This document shows positions 19,337 through 21,954 of a DNA stretch of 34,899 nt, one piece after another. Every line of letters starts with the position of its first letter. Position 1 is the stretch's first letter. The notes under the pieces were generated by a model. That model did not search any database. It was not told the DNA's origin and saw nothing but the letters and a program-made list of their open reading frames with translations. Made by a program: the position numbers and the translations under genes. Location of the stretch: contig CACHRU010000007.1 in NCBI GenBank assembly GCA_902582345.1, forward strand, positions 1 to 34,899, read 5' to 3'. The stretch is from an uncultured Pelagibacteraceae bacterium. GTDB taxonomy: Bacteria; Pseudomonadota; Alphaproteobacteria; Pelagibacterales; Pelagibacteraceae.

Positions 19337-21421
19337 ATGAGTATACCAAAATTAAAAAAAATCGAGAATGTAAAAAAATATCACGGAATTGAATTAATGG
19401 ATGAATATTCGTGGGTAGATCAATCAAATATATTAGATGTACTAAAAGATGGTAATAAAATTTTACCTGAAGTCAAAGAGTACATAGATAAAAATAATAA
19501 TTTATGTAATGATTTTTTTTCAAATATTAAAAATTTTCAAGATGAATTATTTAAAGAAATTAAGGGAAAAATAAAACTTGATGACACATCTTTAAAATTT
19601 AAAGATAAAAAATATTTCTATTGGACAAAAACCGATGTTAATAGTAATTACTCAAAAAAAATAAGACAATTAATAGATAAATCAAAAGATCCAGAAGTTT
19701 ATTTTGACGGTGATGTCGAAAAGAAAAAATATGGTTCAAAATATTTTGGAGTAGGGGCAATAAGCGTATCGCATTGTGATAAAATTTTAGCTTATTCTTT
19801 AGATCTGCAAGGTTCTGAATATTACACAATTTATTTAAGAAATTTGGAGAATAATGAAAAAATTTCAGATGAAATTAAAAATACTAATGGATCTATAACT
19901 TGGTCATTGGATAGCAAAAGTTTTTTTTACGTTAAGTTAGATAAATTTCATAGAGCAAGAAGTATTTTTAAACATGAAATTGGAAAAAAAAGTTCAGAAG
20001 ATCAGCTGATCTTTGAAGAAAAAGATGACACTTTCACATGTAACATTAGCTTAAGTGCTGACGAGAAATTTTTTATAATATCTACATCTGACCATATAAC
20101 AACAGAAGAGTATTTTTTTCCTTCAGATCAAAAAAATATTTTACCAAAATTATTTAGAAAGAGAGAGCAAAATATTAGATATTCTATAGATAGTTGGAAA
20201 GGATATTTTTATATTCATACTAATCATAATGCTAAGGATAATAAAATACAAAGATGCAAAATTAACAATTTAGAAACGCTAGAAGATTATATACCAGCAA
20301 AAAAAGAAACAGTTATAGGTGACGTCGAATTTTTGGATGATTACATCATAAGATCAGAAAAATCAGATGCAATACAAAAAATTTTTATAAGGAATATAAA
20401 AGATAACAAGGAAGAACAAATTAAGATTTCAAAAGAGTCTATAGGAGTCCCGGGGGCTGCAATGATGCAGAAAGATCCGAATACAACAAAAATAAGGTTA
20501 AGCTGGGAAAGTATGGCAACGCCAAGCAAAATATATGAGTATGATATAGTCACAAAAGAGAAAAAATTAGTAAAGGAGCTTGAAATACCTTCAGGTCATG
20601 ATCCTGAAAAATATGTAGTTGAGAGATTAAAAGCTAAATCGCATGATGGTCGAATGATTCCAATTACTCTCATAAGAAAAAAAGATTTTAAAAGGGATGG
20701 AAACTCAAAAATTGTTTTATACTCATACGGAGCTTACAAACATAGTTTAACGCCTTCTTTTAGCGCTTCTAGATTTATTTTAATTGATAGGGGAATAGTT
20801 TTTGCATTAGCACATGTTAGAGGTGGTGGTGATTTAGGAGACGTTTGGCATGAAGAAGCCAAAAAAAAACAAAAGAAGAATACTTTTGAAGATTATATTG
20901 CATGTGCAGATTTTTTGATAAAGAATAAATACACTCATAAAGGTGGGTTTTGTTTTTATGGTGGTTCAGCCGGTGGCTTAACTGGTGGCGCTGTTATAAA
21001 TATGAGACCAGATTTATTTTTTTCGGCATTACTTCTTGTCCCATTCGTTGACACTCTTACTACCATGTTAAATGAGAAATTGCCTCTTACTCCAGCGGAA
21101 TGGGAGCTTTGGGGTAATCCAATTAAAGATAAAGATTTTTTTAAATATATTGAGTCTTATTCTCCTTACAATAATATCAAAAGTGTTAATTACCCAAATA
21201 TGTTAATTACTACCTCTCTTTTTGATAATCGAGTTTTATATTCTGAACCAATAAAATACATCGCCCGTCTTAGAGACAGAAAGAAGGACAAAAATATACA
21301 GTTATTAAAATGTAAGACCGAAGCAGCAGGCCATGGAGGTATGAGCGGAAGAGATAATGCAATTAGAGAACTAGCAGAAGAATTTAGCTTTATTCTAAAA
21401 ACAAGTAATATTTTAAAATAG
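19337..21421 (+). CDS. ptrB: Oligopeptidase B (S9A prolyl oligopeptidase family)
   Basis: A serine peptidase of 694 residues that cleaves short peptides after basic residues if it is true oligopeptidase B. The N-terminal part (about 1-410) is the beta-propeller that filters substrates; the C-terminal alpha/beta hydrolase has GGSAGG with the nucleophile near residue 544, an Asp in TSLFDNRV near 630, and His in GHGG near 666. The block AHVRGGGDLGDVWHEEAKK is diagnostic of the S9A branch. No signal peptide is seen, so it is probably cytoplasmic. A sigma-32-like element begins four bases after its stop, belonging to the next gene. Confidence 0.92.
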   Translation: MSIPKLKKIENVKKYHGIELMDEYSWVDQSNILDVLKDGNKILPEVKEYIDKNNNLCNDFFSNIKNFQDELFKEIKGKIKLDDTSLKFKDKKYFYWTKTDVNSNYSKKIRQLIDKSKDPEVYFDGDVEKKKYGSKYFGVGAISVSHCDKILAYSLDLQGSEYYTIYLRNLENNEKISDEIKNTNGSITWSLDSKSFFYVKLDKFHRARSIFKHEIGKKSSEDQLIFEEKDDTFTCNISLSADEKFFIISTSDHITTEEYFFPSDQKNILPKLFRKREQNIRYSIDSWKGYFYIHTNHNAKDNKIQRCKINNLETLEDYIPAKKETVIGDVEFLDDYIIRSEKSDAIQKIFIRNIKDNKEEQIKISKESIGVPGAAMMQKDPNTTKIRLSWESMATPSKIYEYDIVTKEKKLVKELEIPSGHDPEKYVVERLKAKSHDGRMIPITLIRKKDFKRDGNSKIVLYSYGAYKHSLTPSFSASRFILIDRGIVFALAHVRGGGDLGDVWHEEAKKKQKKNTFEDYIACADFLIKNKYTHKGGFCFYGGSAGGLTGGAVINMRPDLFFSALLLVPFVDTLTTMLNEKLPLTPAEWELWGNPIKDKDFFKYIESYSPYNNIKSVNYPNMLITTSLFDNRVLYSEPIKYIARLRDRKKDKNIQLLKCKTEAAGHGGMSGRDNAIRELAEEFSFILKTSNILK

Positions 21422-21424
21422 ATC

Positions 21425-21452
21425 CTTGAAATAAAAAATTTAATTCATATAT
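21425..21452 (+). promoter_or_regulatory. Sigma-32-type heat-shock promoter of hsp20
   Basis: CTTGAA (21425-21430) followed by CATATAT (21446-21452) matches the alphaproteobacterial RpoH pattern CTTG, 17-18 bases, CYTATNT in all but one position, with 17 bases between CTTG and CATATAT. Transcription would begin near 21458, at the first hairpin of the leader. Confidence 0.6.
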
Positions 21453-21456
21453 AAAA

Positions 21457-21510
21457 ATTGTCATTCGCCAGTTGGGAATGATAATTAACCTTGCTAACAA
21501 AGGAGGAAAA
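21457..21510 (+). promoter_or_regulatory. ROSE-like RNA thermometer in the hsp20 leader
   Basis: Hairpin 1: ATTGTCATTC (21457-21466) pairs with GAATGATAAT (21476-21485) with one G-U pair, plus an inner CC/GG around AGTT. Hairpin 2: CTTGCT (21490-21495) can face the Shine-Dalgarno AGGAGG (21501-21506) across a short AACAA loop, with the G of TTGCT bulged. TTGCT opposite the Shine-Dalgarno is the conserved signature of ROSE thermometers, which control small heat-shock genes in alphaproteobacteria. The element is much shorter than described ROSE leaders. Pairing is worked out by hand. Confidence 0.55.
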
Positions 21511-21954
21511 ATGACAAGTAAGGATATTTCGATCTTTAATTCTCTAAAACCTTTTAGTGTGGGCTTTGATGATATGTTTGATCAGTTTGAGTCTATGCTA
21601 GGGAGCGGTGGACTTTCGATGCAAAGTAACTATCCACCTTACAACATTAGAAGAGCTGGTAAAGACAAATACGCTATCGAAGTAGCTGTTGCCGGGTTCA
21701 ATAAGAAAGATGTTGAGGTCGAGTTTGAAGACAATCTTTTGACTATTAGAACAAAAAAAATAGAAAAAGATGAACAAAAAAAGGGCGATGAAGTAATACA
21801 TAGAGGCATTTCACAAAGATCTTTTGTAAGATCTTTTTCAATTGCTGATGATGTAAAAGTTAATGACGCCGAACTTAGGGATGGTTTATTGACAATTTCT
21901 TGTGAGAAAATTATTCCTGAAACAAAAAAAAAAAGACTTATTGAAATAAAATAA
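21511..21954 (+). CDS. Hsp20/alpha-crystallin small heat-shock protein (IbpA-like)
   Basis: An ATP-independent holdase that keeps unfolding proteins refoldable. ATG 21511 follows AAAGGAGG by four bases, far better than an in-frame TTG-type start near 21472, giving 147 residues. The alpha-crystallin domain runs from YNIRRAGKDKYAIEVAVAGF (about residues 45-65) to LRDGLLTISCEK near 127-138, with the conserved GLL motif; the C-terminal IEIK stretch is close to the family I-x-I/V tail. The N-terminus (SIFNSLKPFSVGFDDMF) is like IbpA of alphaproteobacteria. Regulation appears double: a sigma-32-like promoter and a leader able to mask the Shine-Dalgarno. Confidence 0.93.
   Translation: MTSKDISIFNSLKPFSVGFDDMFDQFESMLGSGGLSMQSNYPPYNIRRAGKDKYAIEVAVAGFNKKDVEVEFEDNLLTIRTKKIEKDEQKKGDEVIHRGISQRSFVRSFSIADDVKVNDAELRDGLLTISCEKIIPETKKKRLIEIK

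Follow-up and report, generated by a model that had tools for sequence, protein, structure and literature searches.

The closest described systems to the leader considered here are the functional two-hairpin ROSE-like RNA thermometers that lie before the sigma-32-dependent ibpA gene of Pseudomonas, for which a temperature response has been measured (Krajewski et al., 2013; PMC3669281). The available text of that paper cites approximately -5 to -6 kcal/mol as the stability needed in the second hairpin for inhibition. Classical ROSE elements, as represented by the Rfam family RF00435, are longer than the SAR11 leader described below; they contain additional hairpins, and their sensing hairpin is stronger. 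ROSE-like and ROSE-G thermometers have also been reported before ABC transporter genes (PMC11342760; PMC12857270) and, in the available text, share U(U/C)GCU, with a bulged G and a U-G wobble as the labile core; the opposed Gs of ROSE-G resemble the 1x1 G-G register that the folding model prefers in genus g3 of the present sample. These latter systems concern other genes in other bacteria, and the main texts of the two papers do not name Pelagibacter. No report of an RNA thermometer in SAR11 or Pelagibacter was found in the main text of the open-licence papers searched, and the main text of a survey of Pelagibacter structured RNAs published in 2009 (PMC2704228) contains none of the terms thermometer, heat shock, hsp or ibpA.

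The window, meaning the whole stretch of 34,899 nucleotides that was analysed, belongs to a 978-kb assembly of 27 contigs that is 85% complete. The upstream gene, which looks like an S9 peptidase when its sequence is judged by eye, has its stop at 21421, from where 89 bases lead to the ATG of hsp20 at 21511. The hsp20 product was matched by PF00011 (E 2e-18) and its best NCBIfam model was IbpA (E 4e-29, under that model's cut-off), such that the leader of approximately 50 nt, with its two hairpins, stands before a small heat shock gene. On rechecking the sequence and fold, the coordinates of the earlier note (21425-21510) were correct. The features are:

21425 to 21452, + strand: RpoH (sigma-32)-like promoter, CTTGAA at 21425-21430 and CATATAT at 21446-21452 (pattern match and conserved place)
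21457 to 21485, + strand: hairpin 1, 12 pairs, bulged G at 21467, loop AGTT (fold and covariation)
21489 to 21495, + strand: anti-Shine-Dalgarno (anti-SD) strand CCTTGCT, with the ROSE motif TTGCT at 21491-21495 (motif kept across leaders)
21489 to 21506, + strand: hairpin 2, the putative sensing hairpin, CCTTGCT with AGGAGG, loop AACAA (G21493 bulged in the ROSE register; a CCUU:AAGG register competes)
21501 to 21506, + strand: Shine-Dalgarno (SD) AGGAGG (sequence)
21511 to 21954, + strand: hsp20, 147 aa, IbpA-like small heat shock protein (PF00011 and IbpA model)
21517 to 21523, + strand: AGTAAGG in codons 3-5, complement of CCTTGCT, 7 pairs of which one is G-U (folds and codon invariance)

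Set against the available text of the Pseudomonas study, it is the two-hairpin ibpA leaders that this leader most resembles. Both have a stable first hairpin, a short second hairpin in which U(U/C)GCU faces the SD, a flanking G-C pair, a sigma-32-type promoter and a small heat shock gene. The claim that known ROSE leaders are longer and have more stems was therefore wrong, as two-hairpin leaders had already been published (PMC3669281). The two systems differ in the second hairpin, which has -4.1 to -7.6 kcal/mol in Pseudomonas and approximately -2.9 kcal/mol at 37 °C in the window's family (f1); measured against the cited -5 to -6 kcal/mol, this counts against the thermometer explanation. They also differ in that the SAR11 anti-SD strand has a complement just inside the coding region, in codons that are fixed, a feature of which no mention was seen in the available text of PMC3669281. 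The short two-hairpin ROSE-like kind is thus already known; as far as that source goes, what is new, and testable, is the coding-region complement, and the complementarity of the anti-SD strand to codons 3-5, as read from the sequence, is newly described here and had escaped the earlier note.

A total of 136 leaders were collected, 125 from f1 and 11 from its sister family (f2). Two of them (L001 and L004) are the window itself, and 125 are distinct. The search for related loci kept the best 80 of at least 547 confirmed, so the sample leans toward near relatives; the closest named hsp20 relatives among these best 80 are Pelagibacteraceae. Left out before counting were L002 and L003, which are not hsp20, and L069, L130, L134, L142, L143 and L177, in which the leader or start was missing or cut. 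In the MAFFT alignment (A1), the motif of one subgroup was offset from that of another by a single base, and pairs in hairpin 2 were therefore counted by anchoring on the motif.

T(T/C)GCT together with GGAG was found within the last 45 bases of all 136 leaders, 122 with TTGCT (all f1) and 14 with TCGCT (11 of them f2). The earlier note had named an absence of TTGCT conservation as an outcome that would refute it, and the opposite was seen. Within the window's genome, YTYGCTN3-8AGGAG has seven matches, of which only that of hsp20 has an ATG within 30 bases; AGGAG-N4-9-ATG occurs 139 times vs 116 in the reversed control. Across the order, hsp20 was detectable in 342 of 397 genomes (302 f1 and 40 f2 by row count) and CTTGCT-N5-10-GGAG-N4-9-ATGACAAGTAAG was present in 278 of the 397, with a reversed control of 0 in every row among those listed. 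Together with the named relatives, this spread bears out the earlier description of the host as a streamlined ocean bacterium. Eleven g3 genomes with hsp20 were picked for absence of the exact string and inspected; one has its start cut off, and the ten further leaders of the others all keep UUGCU and GGAG. Among the rows listed, 16 g1 genomes (83-90% complete) had no detectable hsp20, whether through loss or assembly gaps.

The promoter rests on several observations. Its spacing, CTTG-N17-CATATAT by pattern match, is presumably in agreement with the alphaproteobacterial RpoH consensus. The pattern is not rare alone (5 matches vs 4 in the reversed control). CTTGAA stands at the conserved place in 107 of 125 distinct f1 leaders, and RpoH is encoded in the window's genome (354.7 bits, cut-off 323.1). 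A sigma-32-type promoter, proposed earlier, is thus backed by pattern, conservation and the presence of the rpoH gene, and the site would qualify as the RpoH-type promoter expected of a short ROSE-like thermometer. A similar promoter-like site, CTTGAA...CATATAT, was observed before another gene (L163; G000:C3:64803-64830), which from its protein sequence looks like rho. In another alphaproteobacterial family, an rpoH gene (TIGR02392, 328.7 bits) immediately follows a leader of two hairpins that contains UUGCU and has a G bulged in its first hairpin (L186; G645:C86:8455-8527, minus strand). No second leader before rpoH was found in three genomes of that family, and other places were weak (E 0.14-0.59). 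If L186 is real, the heat-shock sigma factor would itself be under a ROSE-like leader.

Covariation among relatives, put forward earlier as a check, separated the two hairpins: hairpin 1 covaries, while hairpin 2 has little to show, its SD side hardly varying. In 115 distinct f1 leaders, 93.6% of hairpin 1 cells are paired, and both sides have changed in 7 of 11 pairs; the covariation score is 0.394, vs 0.241 after shuffling and no more than 0.112 after sliding. Of five measures, one was less clear, as the count of pairs changed on both sides was reached by 20 of 500 shuffles. RNAalifold recovers hairpin 1 in f1 leaders and does not predict hairpin 2. The core pairs of the latter (U-A, C-G, U-G or C-G, U-A, C-G) are possible in 115/115 f1 leaders, with U-G replaced by C-G in three, so that the evidence for hairpin 2 is conservation more than covariation because the SD side is fixed. 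The motif in every leader and the covariation of hairpin 1 bear out the earlier proposal of a compact ROSE-like leader before hsp20; judged by its sequence, the leader is real, conserved and of the short ROSE-like kind, and the model predicts two hairpins of which the first is stable. The leader sequence has no U run after hairpin 1, a point against an attenuator.

The earlier note also had TTGCT facing the SD with a bulged G. The window sequence does allow UUGCU to face AGGA, with G21493 bulged and two flanking C-G pairs, so that the motif could pair with the SD via one bulged G, though this is not the best register of the window in the nearest-neighbour model (-1.3 kcal/mol at 37 °C vs -2.9 for CCUU:AAGG). 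Mean hairpin 2 energies at 37 °C were -2.9 kcal/mol in f1 (125), -4.3 in f2 (10) and -8.0 in RF00435 matches (8), from stretches that were cut differently; a weaker sensing hairpin would suit a cooler habitat. When leaders were folded with 6 nt of coding sequence, the anti-SD strand paired with the SD region (mean above 0.5) in 111-113 of 115 f1 leaders from 5 to 45 °C.

Rfam gave no useful match at gathering or relaxed thresholds; RF00435 did not match the window leader even at E 10, nor 12 of its relatives. The model matches just 8 of 289 genomes of the class, one of them above cut-off, and its failure to match SAR11 is therefore weak evidence. The class matches share UYGCU before the start codon (8/8) and a CTTGA visible upstream (6/8), and in three of the six that were folded, the first hairpin resembles the SAR11 one in having two or three C-G pairs above a bulged G. 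The extra middle hairpins of classical ROSE were not found in f1 leaders, which have two hairpins; in all four f2 leaders that were folded, a middle hairpin is present and the sensing hairpin is longer. A loss of middle hairpins in the history of f1 is plausible. The register of f2 also differs from that of f1: in leaders such as L133 and L136, the AGGA lying downstream in AAGGAGGAUU is a possible partner of UCGCU, flanked by A-U pairs. A covariance model of f1 leaders found 17 of the 289 class genomes at E ≤0.1, three being f1 with the window included. Among the 14 matches outside f1, seven show a start codon preceded by UYGCU and both hairpins, an arrangement that the other seven lack. Four of the proteins behind the former seven were scanned, giving IbpA as the best model for three (below cut-off) and RpoH for one, and the remaining three look like Hsp20 by eye. 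The short form is thus not confined to SAR11.

When the leader was folded together with the first 18 nt of hsp20, the anti-SD strand took a different partner. CCUUGCU pairs with AGUAAGG of codons 3-5 (7 pairs, one G-U), closing a 21-nt loop that holds the SD and AUG. In the window, this coding helix has -5.1 kcal/mol at 37 °C vs -2.9 and -1.3 for the two SD registers, and -8.7 at 15 °C vs -5.7 and -4.1. With 24 nt of coding sequence at 15 °C, its probability was 0.90 in the window and 0.25-0.99 in the seven leaders tried. With 45 nt it was absent from the window fold (0.00-0.04), the SD pairing elsewhere, and exceeded 0.5 in only 15-25 of 115 f1 leaders.

Codons 2-4 are constrained at the RNA or DNA level. 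They read ACA AGT AAG in 103/103 full-length MTSK genes (102 distinct), while codon entropy at other conserved residues averages 0.90 bits. A single codon accounts for ≥99% in only 5 of 96 conserved columns, codons 2-4 being three of these. A tree was built with the first 12 codons left out; on it, codons 2, 3, 4 and 5 show 2, 1, 6 and 2 changes, whereas the 93 remaining conserved-residue columns average 12.0 (three or fewer in seven of them); codons 2-4 and 3-5 are the lowest two of 51 three-codon stretches. Ten genes added to this tree had been picked for absence of the exact pattern, a selection that works against the result. Codon usage does not account for the spelling, given that AAA outnumbers AAG overall in these genes (1153 vs 388) and that outside codon 3, where AGC never appears, AGC and AGT are nearly equal (90 vs 84). 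Synonymous variation is seen at the start of a neighbouring permease gene (75 distinct starts). We infer pairing with the anti-SD strand as the cause of the constraint, and likewise its effect on the ribosome. In the model, the natural spelling ranks 11th-15th of 96 synonymous spellings for anti-SD pairing, and the four best among those listed all use AGC. A middle pairing strength thus seems to be kept.

The bases flanking the motif are linked, with C before and A after in 56 leaders, A before and U after in 56, and A on both sides in two (n = 114). On the tree, the two positions show at least four and five changes, and six when taken jointly. Whichever state is present, as many pairs with the codons remain possible; for pairs with the SD, this holds if G stands at SD position 5. 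An upstream C faces G at this position in 56/56 distinct f1 leaders and an upstream A in 55/69. AGTAAG is found in 108 of 125 distinct f1 starts, the others having AGTAAA (6), AGTAAT (4), AGTAGG or AGTAGA (3), GGTAAG (1) or none of these (3), and it is absent from all 10 f2 starts. In 4 of the 10 g3 exceptions, codon 4 is AAA and the pairing weaker. As UYGCU is kept in all leaders where the coding complement is altered or absent, the ROSE motif is more widespread than the coding complement, which is an addition in part of f1.

Predicted SD opening with temperature gave shallow curves in all groups, including RF00435 matches and the ibpA and ibpB leaders of E. coli. Since the curves are shallow even for known ROSE elements, they are not diagnostic, and the energy model appears to be a poor judge of this property. 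With 18 nt of coding sequence, mean SD openness was 0.59-0.71 in real leaders vs 0.14-0.32 with a shuffled anti-SD segment; the window SD is open in these folds because codons 3-5 capture the anti-SD strand. That real leaders are more open than shuffled ones argues against simple masking in an SD hairpin, unless the coding helix itself blocks ribosomes.

We consider a short ROSE-like thermometer on an RpoH-transcribed hsp20 mRNA, overlaid by pairing with the coding region, to be the best explanation, with a probability of roughly 0.6. By analogy with characterised elements, a thermometer function of the leader is likely. Heat or misfolding would increase RpoH-driven transcription of hsp20, and hairpin 1, whose structure is supported, may serve as a stable 5′ element. 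When cool, the UUGCU strand would pair weakly with the SD and so mask the start region, which would be freed on warming, as in characterised ROSE. In most of f1, the anti-SD strand would also pair with codons 3-5, placing the SD and AUG in the 21-nt loop; in our view this helix would reinforce the block at low temperature, given how weak the SD hairpin is by itself. The absence of the coding helix from 45-nt folds slightly lowers our confidence in the full explanation. More tentatively, the system of most f1 members could be bistable, CUUGCU choosing between the SD and codons 3-5, with AAG and AGT fixing a middle strength and a switching range for the cool ocean. A plain short ROSE-like thermometer, with codons 2-4 fixed for another reason, for example to keep pyrimidine-rich partners away from the SD or through a start-codon effect, would fit the retention of UYGCU in groups with an incomplete coding complement or none (g4, g7, g8, one of two g5, and f2), the 45-nt fold of the window, and the pairing of added pyrimidine runs with the SD in hand-made synonymous variants in the model. 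However, this leaves the invariant AAG at codon 4 and AGT at codon 3 unexplained, and the synonymous variation of the permease starts also speaks against it; we regard it as rather unlikely.

The openness of the SD bears on a different possibility, that codons 3-5, once transcribed, strip the anti-SD strand off the SD and that a bistable balance, not simple melting, sets translation. Both the unpaired SD seen when 18-24 nt of hsp20 are folded with the leader (0.84 in the window at 15 °C) and its greater openness in real than in shuffled leaders would agree with this. However, the coding helix is stronger in the cold (-10.3 kcal/mol at 5 °C), which would favour translation at low temperature, an odd outcome for a heat-shock gene, and an SD and AUG closed within a 21-nt loop may remain blocked to ribosomes; we therefore think it improbable. 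Least probable of all is that the leader does not act as a thermometer here and serves mainly to stabilise the mRNA or as a binding site of the chaperone. E. coli IbpA has been reported to repress itself via its 5′ leader (PMC10474464, available text), and hairpin 1 is the strongest and best-supported structure, hairpin 2 being weak. Against this, UYGCU does not vary save for its U/C step in both sampled families and is found in the genome at the hsp20 start only. A leader that stabilises mRNA or binds IbpA could moreover work alongside the preferred thermometer with its coding-region overlay.

SAR11 bacteria rank with the most abundant cells of the ocean, and their set of regulators is considered small. 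If almost every hsp20-bearing member has retained a thermometer, it would be a direct link from temperature to protein in this group, and the variation of its leader across species a natural experiment on sensor tuning. If codons 3-5 belong to the thermometer, studies of leaders alone may miss a working part. Outside SAR11, in the RF00435 match L145 (G472:C25:23772-23869), an anti-SD GUUGC was seen by eye to have the complement GCAAC just inside the coding region.
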